A DNA stretch of 64,000 bases from positions 1,984,001 through 2,048,000 of the forward strand of contig JAXQJY010000028.1 of assembly GCA_037042185.1 (NCBI GenBank). Direction: 5' to 3'. The translations under genes were made by a program, and so were the position numbers. This document shows positions 978-59,017 of this stretch, one piece after another (the stretch's first letter is position 1; every line of letters starts with the position of its first letter). The stretch is from Sordariomycetes sp. S80-01Y. Its lineage: Eukaryota; Ascomycota; Sordariomycetes. Below the pieces are notes generated by a model. That model was not told the DNA's origin and searched no databases. It worked only from the letters and a program-made list of their open reading frames with translations.

Positions 978-2287
978 GCCGACTGTGGGTGCTGTCTCCT
1001 TACTGGTTTGTGGTCTTGGGCTGTTCTTGGGATGACTTTCAAGTTGGATGGAACCGTCGAGCGAAAATGCACATTGATCTCGAAGCGAAGTCAAAGGCGA
1101 GACGACCCGAGGGCTGCGACTCCTAAGTAGGCGCCTTGAAACCGCGGACATAGCACCCCGAAGGATACGGCTGGCTCCCCTTAAACTTCGCGACGGATCG
1201 ATCGCGCGGCCACCCAAGGACGCCCCCGCTACACCCGCAGGCTCCTACACATGGCAGCAGCATCGAGACTGGGCCGGTGCCACCTGGCTACCTCCTGGGG
1301 GTTTCTTAGCAGGGCGACAGGCAGCGACACAGGAGACCACCGCCGGTAGAGGTGCCCAACCGACGGCCATGCGACCACACGGCGTGGGACACATCATTGA
1401 GCAGTGGCAGCGACTCAGCGACTCAGCGACTCGGGAGCCCGCTGGCACGTCTACAGTGGATGTCGTCCCCGGCGGTGACCAGAGTTTGAGCGAGTTGGCG
1501 GACGGTCGGACAGGGCCTCTTATGCACGCAGATGCAGCATGGGGGGGCGGGGGCTCCACCACCACACCTCGAGTCGCGGTCCGTTTGCATTGCCAGTGCA
1601 CTCCCGCTGGCACACTGGCGCTGGCACTGGAACCGGCACCCTCTCTCTCTCTCTCTCCCTGTCTCTGCCTGCCAGTGAGTCTCACCCACCACGCACCACG
1701 TACCACCACGCCTTGCTACCCGACTCGGCTTCAGGTTGACACTTGCACCGTAACACTCCTCCCGCCTCCCACCTCCCACCTCCCCCCTTGCGCCTCCGGC
1801 GGCATCTCCGTTAGCCTCTCTCCCATCCTTCTGGACCGGTCGTCGGCTGTTTACGCGTCGTCTTAGCTCCTTGTCCCGTCCTTCCCCGTCCACCGTCTGC
1901 CCCGGCTCTCCTCGTCCTCCACCACCACTGGCACCGCATGCCATGGCAGCCCGTGGCGCTGAATACGATCAAGGCATGCAATGCAAGCCCTCACTCACCC
2001 CTTCGCCCTTCGGCTTCACGCTCGCCACACCCCCATGCACGCCTTCTGCAACAAGTCTGGTGATGGTGGCCAAAAGGCCTTCATGTGATGGCTGCACCTC
2101 AGTGGAATTGCCAAATGCTATCTGGACTCTATTTTCCGTTCTATTACTGGACCAGGGATCCGAACACCTCCAACGCACCCGGGTGGCCAGGTGAAAGACC
2201 GGTGAGCCCGCCTCAGTGATCGATGCTGCACTTCGTCAGTCTACATGTCCTCGACGTCAATCACCTAGAAAATCAAGGAAAAGGCAC
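978..2287. other. Intergenic stretch with low-complexity tracts
   Basis: No gene is supported here. It holds a tandem run of GACTCAGC-like units near 1410-1432, a CT microsatellite near 1641-1658 and C-rich pyrimidine tracts near 1745-1830. This looks like the upstream region of the small gene on the left and the 3' flank of URC1 on the right. Confidence 0.5.
1641..1658. repeat. CT dinucleotide microsatellite
   Basis: An uninterrupted run of about eight CT units lies in a pyrimidine-rich, non-coding background. Confidence 0.8.
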
Positions 2288-4800
2288 TTACTCCTCCCAC
2301 ATGCGACCCTGGACTGCCTGCAGCTCCTCCTCCGTCAGACGTTTCCCAGCAGTAAAGTAGCCTGCGGGTGGGTCAGCCAGCTATTTCCGAAGCCATGTAC
2401 TCCGTCCGGAGTACATCGTGATTCTGCTACAGAATACTTACCAGCTGTGATCTTGGCATCGATTTCCACCCGTGAATCGGCCGGGATCAAATAATCCGGC
2501 AGCTCAACCCGCTCGTGGATCGGGATACTGCCAGCGGTTAGTCTATCCGTCGCCAGGCACAGTTGTCCTTGTAGCTCACCCTTGGCCGACAATCGCGTCG
2601 TGTTTCATGCTATCCTATGTGTCAGTCATTCCTCTCCAATACTTCTTACTTCGGCACCACCACTCACTTGCTCATGCTCAACATGCGGTCAATCTTCTTG
2701 ATCCCCAACCAGTGGAGGATGTCGGGCATGAGGGCCTGGAAACGCATGTCCTTGACGCCCGCAATGTTTTCCGTCCGTTTGAAATAGTCCGAAGCGCGGT
2801 CTGCGCCGCGTTTGCGGGCGTTGTACACCACTGCGGCTCATGTAAGTATCTCGCCGACTTCTTGCGCGGCACTTTGGCGGCACTAGGCGGCACTCACGGT
2901 ACTACCAATGGAGTTAGCTGGTGCTTCGTTATGCAGGGGTCATGAGACCCTACCTTTGTCACCTCTCCCAAGGCGCGGCCTTCCTTCCGGAAATAAATCA
3001 CGACACCGCAACCGCCGTTCTGCGCCTCCTTAACGGCCTCCTCAATACCAAAGATCAGGTAGGGGCGGCACGTGCAAATGTCAGACCCGAACACATCGCT
3101 ACCGTTGCACTAATGCAAGTCAACATAGTAGGCCCAAAAGTCCTGCAACGACTTACTTCATCGTGAATCCTGAGTGACAGTCGCACATTCTCATCCGACA
3201 TCTTGGCGGGGTCGCCGAAGCAGTACACTGTTAGTCCACCTATAATGTGTTATTTGAGGCCCTTGAGATCTCTTAATTACTTGCCAATTGGAGGGAGGAA
3301 GAGCTTGATGTCTCCACGAGTGATTAGCTGTCCATGGTTAGCTGTGCTCCGTTCTTAGCTGCGCATATGCTTACTTCGGGATAGCTGCCACCGGTATGCT
3401 CGAATAGAGATCTTCGCAGGGTTCCTTCGTCTGCTAGAGTCAGCTGGTTGAACGATTATGCTTTTTGTTGTTATCCATACCAATCCCGAAACGCTCAGCA
3501 ACTCCAGGAAGATACCAAACCTGTACCATGGTAAGTGGGCGAAGGGGATCGGCTTTCAAGACCTGAACGCACCGGTTCCACAGCGAACTTGGTGACAGCG
3601 AGCTCACCGAGCTCGTTCAAGCACACCTTTCCATCAGGCACCCTATGGGAGGTCAATATCCGGATTCTTGTGCAAAACCCTTGGCAGGATACCTACAGGC
3701 GTCCCTTGCGGACACTATCCTCTAGCTCGGGTAACTTAGAAGCTTCAGCTTTCCCATATGTACGGTAAGATATAGCGTGAGACAAACCTTCATGTGCGCT
3801 TTGGTGATTGCAATCGTGGGCCGGATGTCGACTTTGTATGGTGTCAGCAGATTTGACCTTGGAAACAGTTGGCAACATCTTACCATCTTCCTTCTCAATT
3901 GTGTCTTTGAAGATCCAAGGAGCAAGGTGGCCGTAAGGATCCATAGCCACGATTTTCTTTGGATCACCCCACTGTGGAAAGGGGCCGATCTGCGAAGCGG
4001 GCTCGGTGTTGGTGAAGTCAGGACTGCAGGGTGTCTCAGCATCTAACACCCCTTTTCCTAGAGGATCTCTAAGCTTACCGGTGATCAATGTTCAACTCTT
4101 TGCTCGCGACTGCTAGAGCATAGTAAATAGAGTAAGAACCGCCGCTAGATCGGTGTTAGCCACCCACAACCCTTTTCACCCAGGTGGTTCACCTACTGAG
4201 CTGCTCTGAGTTAGCAATTGATATCACGGCCACCATATCTTAGTAACATACCTCCAATAGCTGTTTACATAAACTAAGTTAGTACATGCTCTGTGTTTGT
4301 GACCTGGAGTTACGGACCATTTCGGCGCCTGATCGTGGAGGGCAACCTCGACACAACCACAGGTCCACGCTTCAAAGGGTCAAAGTTCCCCCAGTCCATG
4401 GGCATGGGATTGATGCCGATCTGCTTCGGGTATGTCCTGGATACATCAGAATCTGAACAAGAGGGGGGTTCTACCATTCATACGTAAGAACAATCCTCGA
4501 TGTAAGACCAGGTCGCTGGCTCGGTGACGCGGGAGCTGGAGCTTGCAACGTCTCTCCGCCACTTAAGTTCGAACGAATAACGGCATCACTACTAGTAGTA
4601 GGTGCCGATTCTGGCTGCTGCTTCTTCTCGGATGTCTCTTGCGTCGACTGGGCGACACCGCCGGAAGCAGATGTTGAACCAGGTAAGGCCACTCCAACAC
4701 GAGCCGAAAGAGTTTCCATAGCTTCCAAGAGCTGAGATTGTGTCTGGTGAAGCTCTCTGAGAGTCTCCATGACTTCGGCTTGGTCGGCATTGGGATCCAT
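2288..4800 (-). CDS. URC1: URC1-type uracil catabolism protein (GTP cyclohydrolase II-like)
   Basis: The spliced protein has 513 residues. It belongs to the URC1 branch of the GTP cyclohydrolase II family, which acts in the fungal URC route of uracil degradation. Family marks are the cysteine cluster in CNGSDVFGSDICTCRPYL, the following YFRKEGRALGEVTK, and the C-terminal IPIHERVELPDYL. The N-terminal 100 residues are helical and low in complexity. Nineteen exons are needed: 4484-4800, 4318-4436, 4252-4260, 4197-4200, 4079-4144, 3884-4023, 3788-3831, 3697-3734, 3573-3642, 3481-3520, 3375-3430, 3285-3327, 3157-3239, 2954-3109, 2898-2901, 2668-2830, 2580-2609, 2442-2527 and 2288-2361. Their lengths sum to 514 codons in frame. 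Three are micro-exons (9, 4 and 4 nt), and the intron 3240-3284 has a GC donor. The start is the ATG before DPNADQAE. Uracil phosphoribosyltransferase lies 1.7 kb away, beyond ELOF1. Confidence 0.9.
2395..2416. repeat. Perfect 10-bp inverted repeat inside a URC1 intron
   Basis: ATGTACTCCG and its complement are separated by two bases. The arms carry the TACTCCG core that recurs in several non-coding places in this window. Confidence 0.7.
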
Positions 4801-5789: not shown

Positions 5790-6364
5790 ATGGGCAAGCG
5801 CAAGAAGTCGTCAAGGGGACCACAGGGACCCAAGAAGGTATGCGACACTTCGAGGCCTATGTAAAAGATTCGCGACGTGCTCACGCGGATTGCAGAAAGA
5901 TCCTCTTCCTTCGCAATTCACATGCCTATTCTGCAACCACGAGAACGCTGTGACCGTCAAATTAGACAAGAAGGCTGGCGTTGGCCAGCTTGACTGCCGC
6001 ATTTGTGGTCAGAAGTTCCAGTGCGCGGTCAATTGTATGTTGCGATCCGAGCCCCTGGCTACTTCACCAGAAGGATCGCCCGCTGACGCGCGCTTCTCAA
6101 CAGATCTCTCAGCAGCGGTGGATGTCTACGGCGAATGGGTTGACGCAGCAGGTATGCGGCAGACGCTATAATATTAGAGGGTGGACAGACCGGCTAACTG
6201 CTACAGATGCCGTCGCGAAGGAGGATGGCGCAGCACGGGATTATTCTGGGACATCGAGGGGACCGACACGAACATTGACGAACAAGACCGCGGGCGGCGA
6301 CGACTTTGACGACGACGAAAGGCAATACGAGGGCGATGGGATAGTTGGCGATGATGAGATTTGA
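5790..6364 (+). CDS. ELF1: Transcription elongation factor 1 homolog (ELOF1/Elf1)
   Basis: Four exons (5790-5837, 5896-6034, 6104-6151, 6207-6364) give 130 residues. This is the small zinc-ribbon factor that rides with RNA polymerase II in the nucleus. The basic N-terminus MGKRKKSS is the family hallmark. The zinc ribbon follows, with cysteine pairs in [11 protein letters not shown] and DCRICGQKF, then the conserved [15 protein letters not shown]. The splice between the second and third exons rebuilds the N-Y-L of that segment, which supports the model. The acidic tail ([14 protein letters not shown]) is usual for fungal members. The gene sits between the two uracil-metabolism genes but is not functionally linked to them. 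Confidence 0.95.
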
Positions 6365-6469: not shown

Positions 6470-7359
<890 letters not shown>

Positions 7360-54284: not shown

Positions 54285-57200
54285 ATGCCTTCAGTGGGCG
54301 TGACGCAGCATGACTACAGGACCTACCGTGTCTTAGGGGTCGATAAAACCTGGGACGTCGAGAAGCTACGAGTCTGTCTCGCGAGCCAACCGGGGGACAT
54401 CCAACCGAAAGTTCTCTCACTCGCTACAGAAACAGACAGACGATCACAAACGGCCACAGTCGTCTTTCAAAATGGCAGAGTTCCGACCAGTCCGATCCGT
54501 CCAGCGAACATCGTCATAGAACACACCTTTCACGGTATCACGCCTCTTTTCACGCCTTCCAAGGAAAACCACAAAGTCGAGTCAGGATTGTCTATAAAAC
54601 CGCATCGGTCATGCACTTACCCGATCACAGTATTATTGCCATTTCCGGCCTGGGCGGCCATGCGTTAGGCTCTTTCAAACAACGGGGTAGTGACTACATG
54701 TGGTTGAGAGACTCTCTTCCACAGGACCTGGTGGAGGAAGGCTATGACGAACATGACCGTCCTATAGCCCGCATCATGGTATATGGATATGCTTCAGAAC
54801 TGGATGACAGGACAAGTTTTCAGAGCATGGAGGACATCGCTTCAAGTTTTCGTCAAGCGGTTGAGGATTGCAGGCTGACGAAGCCTACAATATTCATTGG
54901 GCATAGCCTTGGTGGAATTCTCGTGAAGGAGGTAAGATCTCTATCTACCTTTCTAAGCTTTGCTGATGGAATAATTGCAAGGCCTTCATCCACTGGACCC
55001 AATCTAAACATCACGCAAAGCTATTGCAAGCGGTACACGCCATCGTGTTCTTTGCCGTACCTCACGATGGCATGGAAGTCATATCGTTGATTCCGATGGT
55101 CGGAAACACAAATCGCAAGCTGGTTGATTTACTTGACCGCCATAACCCGACGAAACTCTCGAGCCAGCGAGAGCAATTCCTCAAAGCTTTAATAGCAAGA
55201 CCTGAGACCGAAATCTTCTGCTTTTATGAAACTCAGCTATCGCATACTGCACAGAAGGTGTGAATACAATCAAACAAACTATGTGCTTGACTGATGACCA
55301 TAGGACGAGGATAATCCCGGAAAGTGGAAGATGGACGGTCCTTTGGTTGTGCTTGTTAGCCAACCGTCAGCGACCATCTATCGACCCGGGGAAGACAGCC
55401 CGATGCCTATCGCTGCTATCAATCGTTCGCATTCGGAAATCGTAAAATTCGGACCCCACGACGCAGAATATAAGAATGTACGCGGCGCGCTCCGTGGTCT
55501 CTGCGAAAGGGCTATCGAGAAACAGCAACACCCGGCTGTGCAAAGTATGTGAGATGTTGTCAATGCGTGTTCGGATGCAGTAAGCTGACGCCGTCCTCAA
55601 GTGAGTGAGAGCATTTTGAAACGGCGGGAAACCCTCATGAGATCATTGAAATTCCCACAAATTGATGAGCGGCTGTCAAATGTCAAATCTCCCCATAAGA
55701 AGACATACGATTGGATCCTAGACGATCCTACTTTTCGCCAGTGGCAGGGTTCTACACAAGATTCAGACAAGCACAGGATGATTTGGATCAAGGGCATTCC
55801 TGGAGCAGGCAAATCGACCATTATGAAGTTTGCCTACAATCAAGTACGCAAACGCACTGCAGAAAATGTTCTTGTCTCATCATTTTTCTTCAATGCTCGA
55901 GGGGATGAGCTGGAAAGAACCGTGCCGGGCATGTATCGATCACTCCTATGGCAGCTTCTCAACCACTTCACTGACCTTCAGATTGTGTTTGACGACTCTG
56001 AAATGCTCAGTCCGTACCGGAATCATTGCTCCCTGCTTGAGCTCCAAAGCCTTCTTCGTGGTGCTGTGTTGCAGCTAGGCCAACGGAGCCTCTTCTGGTT
56101 CATCGATGCACTCGACGAATGCAAAGAAACTGAAGTTGCAGATATGATCCACTACTTTGAAGAGTTGGGCGCATCCACGCTAGCGAATGGTATCAATCTG
56201 GCGATCTGCGTCTCTAGTCGTCATTACCTGACGATCCGCATGCGACGGGCTCACGACCTTGTTCTCGAAACTAACTTGCACCACGAACGAGACTTGAAGG
56301 CCTACATTACGGACCGGTTACGAGTAGATGAACCTGATATCGTCGAGAAAGTCTTTGCCAAAGCTTCTGGAGTGTTCTTGTGGGTTGTCCTCGTTGTTGA
56401 CATCCTAAATAGAGAAGACCAGAATGGCGGATTCTCTATGAGTAGGCGTCTCGACGAAGTCCCTGGCGACTTGCGTGGCCTATTTGTACAGCTTCTGGGG
56501 GAAAAGACTGGCGATGCAGTCAGAAACGAGACCACCAAGCTTAGTATGCTTTGGCTTTTATTTGCTAGGCGGCCGCTTGGACCAATCCAGTATTGCAATG
56601 CGATCTGGGCTGGGCTGTCATCGAAAGGGCTGTTGAAAGACGATGTCCCCCCATGGGACGATACTATGCCAAACGCCCATGAACGAGCTACGAGATATGT
56701 CATCAGCTCCTCTAAAGGACTTGCAAGGGTTCCTGCGGTGACTGAAACGGGGGTTTTCAGTAACGTTCAGTTAATACACGAAACCATCCGAGACTTTCTG
56801 TTGAAAGAGGATGGCTTTGCGCGACTATGGCCCGAACTCAAGACCGACATCAAGGCCTTCAGTAATTTGACTCTCCGGCAATCATGCATGAGCTATTGGA
56901 ATCATTTGTCGAAGTCATCGTCCCGTAGTCCCGCCGAACAAGATTATCGACATTCTTCGACTGACGGAACGGCATTCTTAGACTACATCGTGGATTTCGT
57001 TCTATGTCACGCCGAAGCTTCTGCGAGCACCTTCCCTCAAGAAAGGTTTCTACTTGAGTTTCCTGTTGCAAGTTACGTCGCAGCGAGAGGACAAGGCGAC
57101 GACATCGATAGCTTGAACGGGAATCCAGATTTTCTTTACATACTTTCATTCTACGGTTACGCAAGGCTTATCTCTGCATTTCTTCAGCTTGAGAGTGCTG

Positions 57201-59017
57201 GCCATTATACCGCGGGAAGAGCAGGAAGGCATAGATTTCCAGCACTTGTTGCTGCCGCAGAAGGAAATCAAGAGGCGTTCAGTGCTCTTGTTTCAACCCC
57301 AACAGATATCTACGTCGGAGCTGACCTATTCGAGGGTTTTCAATGTCTCCAAGACTTATGGGGCGACATGTCCGATGGAAACCCATATGAGTTGCTCACA
57401 CCAATGACTTGGGCAGCGTCAAGAGGATACACACAGATGGTAAAGAAGTTGTTGCTTCAATACAAAGAAGACATAAATCAATCTGATCGCTTTAGGAGAA
57501 CGCCACTTAGTGCAGCAGCGGGGGGTCGATCCGAGGAACTTACGCGGTTTTTGCTTAGAAAAGGGGCAGATATTGAGGCCGGTGAGCCTCTTGTTACAGT
57601 CTCGGAACGAGGGTACGAGGAGATAGCCCGACTTCTGATCGAAAAGGGGGCAGATATTAACGCCGGTTATCCTCTCGCTCACGCCTCGAGAAGGGGCCGC
57701 GAAGAGATTGTCCGACTTCTGATCGAAAAGGGGGCAGATATTAACGCCGGTTATCCTCTCGCTCACGCCTCGAGAAGGGGCCACGAAGAGATAGTCCGAC
57801 TTCTGATCGAAAAGGGGGTAAATATAAACGCCGGTTATCCTCTCGCTCACGCCTCGAGAAGGGGCCGCGAAGAGATAGCCCGACTTCTGATCGAAAAAGG
57901 GGCAGATATAAACGCCGGTTATCCTCTCGCTGAGGCCTCAAAAATGAGCCATGAAAAGATAGCCCGACTTCTAATCAAAAAGGGGGCAGATATAAACGCC
58001 GGTTATCCTCTCGCTGAGGCCTCAAGAAGGGGCCACGAAGAGATAGCTCGACTTCTGATCGAAAAGGGGGCAGATATAAACGCCGGTTATCCTCTCGCTC
58101 ACGCCTCGCAATTTAGCCATAAAAAGATAGCCCGACTTCTTATCGAAAAGGGGGCAGATATTAACGCCGGTTATCCTCTCGCTCAAGCCTCGAGAATGGG
58201 CCACGAAGAGATAGCCCAACTTCTGCTCGTTCATGAAGCGGACGTAAATTTGGAGGATGAATCACATAAGACGCCTTTTGTTGCTGCTCTCACATCGCCT
58301 CTTCCTAGCAACTACAAAATAGTCAAGTTGCTGGCTACATGTGAGGGTATGGAGCCAGGCTATTGCATTAGTCTGGCGGCAGTTCTCGGAAAGACCTCAA
58401 CCCTTCGGGCAGTCATACAAGGGCTCGAAGCTCGTCGGGATGTGAACGTCACAGATGCCATCAACGCAACAGACGCTTTAGGTCGGACTTGGATCGCATA
58501 TGCATCCCGAGTGGGCAATGTCAAAGTATTAGAATGTCTGCTCGAGCAGGAAAAGGCCAACATCGCCAAACCGGATCTCTATGGCACCATGCCCCTCGAT
58601 GCGGCAGTGAGAAACGGTCATTACGAGGTCGTTGAGACTCTCTTCACGAATGGAGCGAGACTCTGCGACACGAACGACCTTGCAAACACATCCTTGCTTG
58701 GCTGGGCTCGACTAGGGCATGACAATGACAATGAAAATGACATCGCAAGGCTGCTGAAGTCGCAGGCGTCTGTTGCTGGTGGCTCTCTCCGAGACGACCC
58801 GGCTCCTGCTGGTTATGAGAGGGTTCACGTCGGTGCTCGAGAAGTATGGTGCGATGTGTGTACTCTCACCATTGCTACCAATGCTGTATATTATGTGTGT
58901 CGGATGTGCAACCAGGGGGGTCTTGTGGTTTGTTACGTTTGCTGGAGACAAGGATTCACGTGCCTGAATGCACAACACGTGTTGCTTGAACACAAAGTGG
59001 AGGCGATCGCTGGATAA
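54285..59017 (+). CDS. Fungal NLR-like protein: alpha/beta hydrolase, NACHT, ankyrin, ZZ
   Basis: Five exons (54285-54580, 54631-54931, 54982-55257, 55304-55544, 55602-59017) give 1509 residues in one frame. Residues 100-330 form an alpha/beta-hydrolase domain with IIAISGLGGHALGSF and the nucleophile elbow GHSLGG (near 189). A NACHT NTPase follows, with P-loop GIPGAGKST (436-444) and Walker B LFWFIDALDECKE (near 535). The winged-helix region ends near 830. Ankyrin-type repeats fill about 970-1410, including seven nearly identical 28-residue units. A ZZ zinc finger closes the protein, with CDVC, CRMC, CYVC and a later histidine pair. This N-effector/NACHT/repeat layout is that of fungal STAND proteins that act in self/non-self recognition and cell death. 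The effector role of the hydrolase is inferred. Confidence 0.9.
57617..58204 (+). repeat. Seven tandem 84-bp units in the NLR gene
   Basis: Each unit encodes 28 residues of the pattern EEIARLLIEKGADINAGYPL plus a variable helix end. Unit starts are 57617, 57701, 57785, 57869, 57953, 58037 and 58121. A diverged eighth unit precedes the array. Differences cluster at unit positions 1-2, 4, 9, 12-13, 22 and 25-28, and the rest is invariant even at the DNA level. Units are five residues shorter than the canonical 33-residue ankyrin repeat, lacking the turn and its threonine. Confidence 0.93.

Follow-up and report, generated by a model that had tools for sequence, protein, structure and literature searches.

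A predicted URC1 gene of a Sordariomycetes fungus, densely split by short introns and with putative exons of 9, 4 and 4 nt

Exons shorter than 10 nt have already been published in fungi. In Fusarium, CYP621A carries a single 1-nt exon that was inferred from a conserved motif and the reading frame and confirmed by RNA reads, in 20 orthologues according to the abstract and 24 genes according to the discussion of that paper (PMC12940212). P450 genes of the basidiomycete Phanerochaete chrysosporium combine very small exons, the shortest of 6 bp, with frequent introns of 45–55 bp (PMC1184071), and Xlr2 of the filamentous ascomycete Trichoderma virens contains a 20-nt switch micro-exon that was missed by annotation and whose inclusion is regulated (PMC11121469). 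Here we describe exons of this known kind in a 64,000-nt stretch of the genome of Sordariomycetes sp. S80-01Y (contig JAXQJY010000028.1, positions 1,984,001–2,048,000; hereafter the window). They lie in a minus-strand gene at window positions 4800–2288 whose identification as URC1, the urg1-type GTP cyclohydrolase II of uracil breakdown, is supported by homology. We consider it probable that this functional-looking gene is interrupted by 18, probably 19, ordinary short introns, and that its micro-exons of 9, 4 and 4 nt are constitutive and are by-products of the dense introns.

The URC1 exons resemble that of CYP621A in being tiny exons of a filamentous ascomycete that are deduced from a conserved motif and the frame, and dropping either 4-nt exon breaks the frame, as dropping the 1-nt exon does in Fusarium; unlike CYP621A, URC1 has three such exons, predicted from the DNA sequence, and 18–19 introns. 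The P. chrysosporium genes share the combination of small exons and short introns but belong to a basidiomycete. Whereas inclusion of the Xlr2 exon is regulated, inclusion is expected to be constitutive in URC1, where skipping would do no more than ruin the protein. The enzyme family itself is represented by Schizosaccharomyces pombe urg1 and yeast URC1, whose partner set in yeasts consists of a uracil phosphoribosyltransferase (UPRTase) and a DUF1688 (URC4/urg3) gene (PMC2174524, PMC3869809). The same partners occur in the present genome; in contrast to the genes in those papers, however, the gene described here has 18–19 introns and its URC4 lies on another contig. Introns are not mentioned in the portions of PMC2174524 that were available and appear once, in a reference, in those of PMC3869809. 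Many short introns in a single gene are also known from Basidiomycetes, where a bacterial alpha-amylase gene underwent massive intron gain (PMC3584928); there the hosts are intron-rich and the transfer is documented, whereas the sampled host genes of URC1 are intron-poor. A literature search for the intron structure of URC1 returned no account among the matches listed, which is not proof of absence.

The name URC1, given to the gene in an earlier note made from the sequence, was borne out by homology. The spliced protein, in a 510-aa version built with a later intron 7 acceptor and used for the domain and structure matches, contains GTP_CH_N (PF12471, 292.6 bits) followed by GTP_cyclohydro2 (PF00925, 62.3 bits), both above the curated cut-offs; in a variant without exons 3 and 15, these scores fell to 276.3 and 34.3 bits. 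Residues 103–507 of the 510-aa version match the solved GTP cyclohydrolase II chains 7eev/7ej3 end-to-end with 504 bits. Alignment with five plasmid-borne bacterial homologues gave 51–60% identity and revealed the HDECNGSDVFGSDxCTCRP core and the RKEGRALGEV motif in URC1. Three of the five plasmid loci examined carry a URC4/urg3 gene and upp after the homologue; one of the other two records is unannotated there, and the second lists neither URC4/urg3 nor upp as a neighbour. Bacterial homologues start near residue 98–103 of URC1, which has a non-conserved N-terminal extension of ~98 residues. Both matches of a PF12471 search of this genome lie inside URC1. The exons as revised join into a reading frame that stays open for 513 codons up to its stop codon (coding sequence of 1,542 nt).

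To place the exon boundaries, we aligned the gene with a profile of 85 bacterial proteins, 80 from prokaryote genome loci (the best 80 of at least 574 confirmed) and five from the plasmid loci, with none dropped and two members identical. Because the profile holds neither introns nor fungal sequence, it is blind to the answer. The spliced alignment was computed by dynamic programming with introns of 35–200 nt running from any GT (8 bits) or GCAA (14 bits) to any AG, and in its flat-cost form used no splice-site model. The flat-cost optimum consisted of exactly the 18 introns of the model, with a score of 780.4. Forbidding exons shorter than 6 nt lowered the score to 764.7 (−15.7 bits) and forbidding those shorter than 12 nt lowered it to 750.6 (−29.9 bits); exon 15 accounts for 13.0 of the 15.7 bits gained. 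With splice-site models derived from other genes of the genome, the region of exons 3 and 4 scored 94.4, compared with 86.9 (<6 nt forbidden; a margin of 7.5 bits) and 77.0 (<12 nt forbidden), and that of exon 15 scored 297.4, compared with 275.6 and 261.6, respectively. Among the residues rebuilt by the micro-exons, Gly148, His150 and Leu397 are identical in 85/85 homologues and Ile147 in 81/85. Position 396, Tyr in URC1, is Phe in 84/85 and Tyr in 1/85, and Ala146 and Ala149 occupy variable positions, matched in 28/85 and 10/85 homologues.

The three micro-exons were found where the earlier note had placed them, each between AG and GT: CTATTGGAG at 4260–4252 (exon 3, 9 nt), CTCA at 4200–4197 (exon 4, 4 nt) and TACC at 2901–2898 (exon 15, 4 nt). 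At the level of the sequence, the micro-exon observation is thus confirmed, including the claim that the three exons rebuild RRRNAIGAHGGSY and VTKYLVYNARKRG in frame, the joined exons being open over all 513 codons. Exon 3, found by both spliced alignment and gene finder, encodes the rest of an Ala codon, Ile, Gly and the first base of the next Ala codon; exon 4 finishes Ala149 and begins the invariant His150, and exon 15 supplies Tyr396 and the first base of the invariant Leu397. The GT donors and AG acceptors reported around all three exons are present, as are the CTAAC-like branch sites in the introns around exons 3 and 4. Intron 2 (4317–4261, 57 nt) has the weak donor GTCCGT and the branch TACTAAC, intron 3 (4251–4201, 51 nt) has the donor GTATGT, the branch GCTAAC and the tandem acceptor GAGCAG, and intron 4 (4196–4145, 52 nt) has the donor GTAGGT and the branch GCTAAC. 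Beside exon 15, intron 14 (2953–2902, 52 nt; donor GTAGGG) also has a CTAAC site, GCTAAC, while intron 15 (2897–2831, 67 nt; donor GTGAGT) has the weak branch CTTAC. Omission of exon 4 or exon 15 leads to a frameshift and a truncated protein, and omission of exon 3 removes three residues. Joining the flanking exons directly, without the micro-exons, was rejected since the frame breaks.

These boundaries were also recovered without homology. A gene finder combining a codon-phase Markov model with position weight matrices for donors, acceptors and branch sites was run on both strands after self-training on 264 kb of the genome, the retraining being done without URC1. At an intron cost of 14, it called URC1 with 18 introns; 16 of them coincide with introns of the homology model, among them all five next to micro-exons, and the three micro-exons were stable over costs of 11–15. 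Outside URC1, exons of ≤12 nt were called once each at costs 13 and 14 and not at all at costs 15 and 16. The reversed sequence yielded a single gene with a single intron at cost 14, and exons of ≤12 nt were absent from it at every cost from 12 to 16. The homology and ab initio methods that give the URC1 structure are largely independent. Low intron costs were discarded as useless, with 2,028–3,224 introns in 40–42 genes. In the rest of the sample at cost 14, two internal exons out of 83 measure ≤16 nt (3 and 16 nt, both predicted); the 3-nt one is at 735340–735342 of contig C5, in a gene with a coding sequence of 2,004 nt.

We estimated how often chance would do as well by shuffling the stretch that separates exon 2 from exon 5 or exon 14 from exon 16, keeping dinucleotides and fixing the first 8 and last 20 bases. 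Under flat costs, 13 of 2000 shuffles equalled or exceeded the real score for exons 3 and 4, and 14 of 2000 did so for exon 15; with the site models, the corresponding counts were 0/4000 and 5/4000.

Several results weigh against this structure. The weakest point is exon 4, because at flat costs the region of exons 3 and 4 scores 72.9 against 70.2 for an alternative with a 13-nt exon, a margin of 2.7 bits. The donor of intron 2 is weak (percentile 18), as are the combined acceptor and branch signals of introns 7, 12 and 15 (percentile 1). Two of the 18 introns differ between gene finder and spliced alignment, namely intron 1, where the gene finder has a later start, and the acceptor of intron 12. 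At cost 16, the gene finder retained the surroundings of exon 15 alone, and at cost 17, in a separate training, URC1 went uncalled. Permissive costs produced small exons elsewhere, with 12 of ≤12 nt at cost 11 and 4 at cost 12, and the reversed sequence gave four genes with three such exons at cost 11. Finally, URC1 has low coding log-odds: among 83 predicted genes it ranks at the 6th percentile, as might be seen in a gene that is foreign or weakly expressed. Automatic annotation may well break at URC1, as this simple gene finder no longer called it once the intron cost was raised.

The intron density of the gene is the outlier, and it is more surprising than the micro-exons. Eighteen introns in 1,542 nt amount to 11.7 per kb, and to 14.4 per kb over the conserved 1,248 nt. 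By comparison, the 89 other genes predicted with a length of 300 nt or more total 147,165 coding nt and 153 introns (1.04 per kb), with no more than 6 in any one gene, and the 71 of at least 900 nt average 0.94 introns per kb with a top value of 4.63; the highest density outside URC1, 7.63 per kb, belongs to an Elf1-like gene of 393 nt with 3 introns. The same gene finder might overlook other intron-dense genes, which qualifies these comparisons. The published mean for Pezizomycotina is 0.47 introns per kb; the ancestor of that group is put at 0.98 and that of all fungi at a reconstructed 7.6 (PMC8476143). Assignment of the present genome to Pezizomycotina is based on the eS1 protein encoded in the window, which among solved structures matches 7r81 best and 5oql next, structures from Neurospora and Chaetomium, respectively. 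When 18 introns were placed randomly in 1,248 nt in 200,000 trials, at least three internal exons of ≤9 nt arose in 34.8% of trials and at least two of ≤4 nt in 25.0%. The micro-exons are therefore expected from the density, and a special cause is unneeded. The earlier note had called the arrangement extreme for a fungal gene, and this holds chiefly for the intron density, the micro-exons being what chance would be expected to produce at that density.

The introns themselves look native and are probably ordinary short spliceosomal introns. They show no significant difference from the 153 others in length (median of 52 versus 53 nt), GC content, T content and branch distance (p = 0.10–0.60), and a CTNAY branch is found in 13/18 URC1 introns and in 124/153 of the others. 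Introns of 45–80 nt would be recognised as units, by intron definition, and the 9-, 4- and 4-nt exons would be constitutive. Short introns are reported to use intron definition, and Prp40 is cited as being needed for exons too small for enhancers (PMC8624252). The two introns flanking a 4-nt exon would leave one after another, as there is hardly room for U1 at the donor together with U2AF at an acceptor 4 nt away. Loss of a 4-nt exon gives an early stop and loss of the 9-nt exon removes Ile-Gly from a near-invariant motif, so a regulated isoform is unlikely. The micro-exons would be by-products of crowding, three introns having landed inside 13 nt at one site and two inside 4 nt at the other. 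Two 4-nt exons and one 9-nt exon could offer a clean test of splicing where exon-spanning recognition seems physically impossible, because most mis-splicing would break the frame or lose an invariant residue.

As to how the density came about, we favour old introns retained in a rarely transcribed gene over a local burst of gain. Tentatively, URC1 may be an intron refuge, a near-silent gene that was spared transcript-mediated loss and so kept an ancestral dense set of introns, micro-exons included. If introns are lost through reverse-transcribed mRNA, a silent gene would keep its introns longer. In S. pombe without uracil, urg1 is within the 10% least expressed genes, with basal levels ~3-/4-fold under those of urg2/urg3 (PMC2174524). 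Retention would fit the partner genes loosely: URC4 has 2–3 introns, although S. pombe urg3 is reported to respond to uracil along with urg1 (PMC2174524), and the UPRTase gene has 3. Both URC1 densities are higher than the value reconstructed for the ancestor of fungi (7.6 per kb; PMC8476143). Comparison of URC1 intron positions across fungi could separate old retention from new gain, an open evolutionary question.

Transfer of URC1 from an intron-rich fungus with its introns kept would account for a density that far exceeds the host sample and would suit the low coding log-odds, but it appears improbable. The introns agree with those of the host in length, GC content and branch distance, and the mean densities listed for intron-rich clades, such as 3.28 in Agaricomycotina, lie well under 11.7 per kb (PMC8476143). 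A scan of viral contigs gave 24 pattern matches with no relative among them. In a tree of 85 bacterial rows and one fungal row, URC1 sits on a long branch, which says nothing on its history.

Somewhat less likely still are other small exons in place of exons 3 and 4, either a 13-nt exon 3 spliced straight to exon 5 or a 7-nt exon 4 created through GAGCAG. Both are in frame, each was optimal in some run with exons of <6 or <12 nt barred, and the flat-cost deficit of the 13-nt exon is just 2.7 bits. However, the 13-nt exon turns Ala-His into Gly-Ile where His is found in 85/85 homologues, the 7-nt exon adds an extra Ala, and the site models favour the 9- and 4-nt exons (94.4 against 86.9 and 77.0). 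The claim in the earlier note that the conserved sequence can only be restored by the three micro-exons is accordingly nearly right, other exon sizes remaining for exons 3 and 4. The tandem acceptor GAGCAG that offers the in-frame 7-nt option lies directly before exon 4, at window positions 4206–4201.

It is very unlikely, and marginally less likely than the other small exons, that the introns stem from introner-like elements or similar repeated insertions arriving in a recent burst. Introner-like elements have been reported in some filamentous ascomycetes (PMC4457414), and the density of URC1 is more than 10 times that of the sampled genes. Against this, the 18 introns align mutually over no more than 12 nt (E up to 1) and have no second place in the 264 kb (E up to 0.1) save for the inner repeat of intron 18; near-identical copies were found neither among the 18 introns nor in the 264 kb. 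Intron 18 (window positions 2441–2362) contains an imperfect 22-nt inverted repeat (20/22 matching) and, as the one intron of the 18 that was searched genome-wide, has one place. Direct repeats at the intron junctions are no longer than those of other introns (mean of 1.17 versus 1.12).

We also enumerated single excisions that would replace the micro-exons, with any dinucleotides and with boundaries shifted by at most 20 nt on the exon side and 70–80 nt on the intron side; 194 were in frame and free of stops for exons 3 and 4 and 758 for exon 15, those six or more residues off length being left unscored. None of the enumerated excisions matched the real local score in either region, and as stwintron-like solutions they restored the protein less well than the micro-exons did. 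For exons 3 and 4, the best scored 19.1 where the real structure scores 39.6. Exon 15 is the closer case: the best, a non-canonical one, scored 55.8, which is 6.1 bits below the real 61.9, and the best canonical one reached 43.9. One-step removal of all that separates exon 2 from exon 5 or exon 14 from exon 16, as a single non-canonical intron or a stwintron with no micro-exon kept, is therefore very improbable, even though stwintrons are known from Pezizomycotina (PMC5639578) and one non-canonical excision at exon 15 comes close, because direct joining of the flanks breaks the frame, the best in-frame case for exons 3 and 4 is 20 bits lower, and each of the five introns comes with a donor, an acceptor and a branch-like signal, although the branch of intron 15 is weak.

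The remaining exons of the proposed gene, with the small exons and many short introns described above, follow the spliced alignment on the minus strand. Exon 1 (4800–4484, 317 nt) carries a putative start codon and the non-conserved N-terminal extension, the gene finder starting instead at 4405, and exon 2 (4436–4318, 119 nt) terminates in the conserved RRRN. Exons 5 (4144–4079, 66 nt), 6 (4023–3884, 140 nt) and 7 (3831–3788, 44 nt) precede intron 7 (3787–3735, 53 nt), for which both spliced alignment and gene finder chose the acceptor TTCTAAG; it restores LPEL, whereas the later acceptor CCCGAG leaves a 3-residue gap relative to 7eev and was rejected. Exons 8 (3734–3697, 38 nt), 9 (3642–3573, 70 nt), 10 (3520–3481, 40 nt), 11 (3430–3375, 56 nt) and 12 (3327–3285, 43 nt) lead to intron 12 (3284–3240, 45 nt), a GC-AG intron in the spliced alignment with donor G|GCAAGT and acceptor ATTATAG. 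It has the sole non-GT donor among the 18, otherwise a strong consensus; the gene finder keeps this GC donor and takes a later acceptor. Exon 13 (3239–3157, 83 nt) is followed by exon 14 (3109–2954, 156 nt), which terminates in GEVTK, and downstream of micro-exon 15 lie exons 16 (2830–2668, 163 nt), 17 (2609–2580, 30 nt) and 18 (2527–2442, 86 nt). Another acceptor for intron 16 was rejected, as an in-frame stop results.

The 3′ end of the gene bears on the count of 19 exons and 18 introns in the earlier note. The 18 introns were reproduced by spliced alignment, but the total exon number may be 20; neither the likely additional intron nor the GC-AG nature of intron 12 is mentioned in the note. 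Exon 19 extends over 2361–2288, with TAA at 2290–2288, or probably over 2361–2292 if a further intron, intron 19 (2291–2226, 66 nt), is real; we regard this intron as likely from its splice signals. Its donor GTAAGT overlaps the TAA, its branch is CTGAC, and relative to other predicted introns its donor scores at percentile 77 and its acceptor plus branch at percentile 87. It was called by the gene finder at costs 11–15, not at 16, and by the alignment with site models, and was omitted by the flat-cost alignment. The likely exon 20 (2225–2213, 13 nt including TGA) would give a 516-aa protein with the C-terminus MWEDIDH, a region too weakly conserved to prove intron 19.

Close to URC1, a UPRTase gene with 3 predicted introns lies at window positions 7359–6470 on the minus strand, and the Elf1-like elongation factor gene (5790–6364, plus strand) stands between the two. 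URC1 and the nearby UPRTase gene form a partial URC cluster. URC4 (DUF1688/urg3) is represented by two full-length genes, with 2 and 3 predicted introns, at 703444–705083 and 755174–756600 of contig C5, ~50 kb apart and on a contig separate from that of URC1; the partner genes URC4 and UPRTase are thus both present in the genome. Further along the window, the region 54698–59017 on the plus strand is predicted to encode a protein of ~1,350 residues in which near-identical ankyrin-like repeats follow a NACHT-type-looking NTPase, both named by eye.

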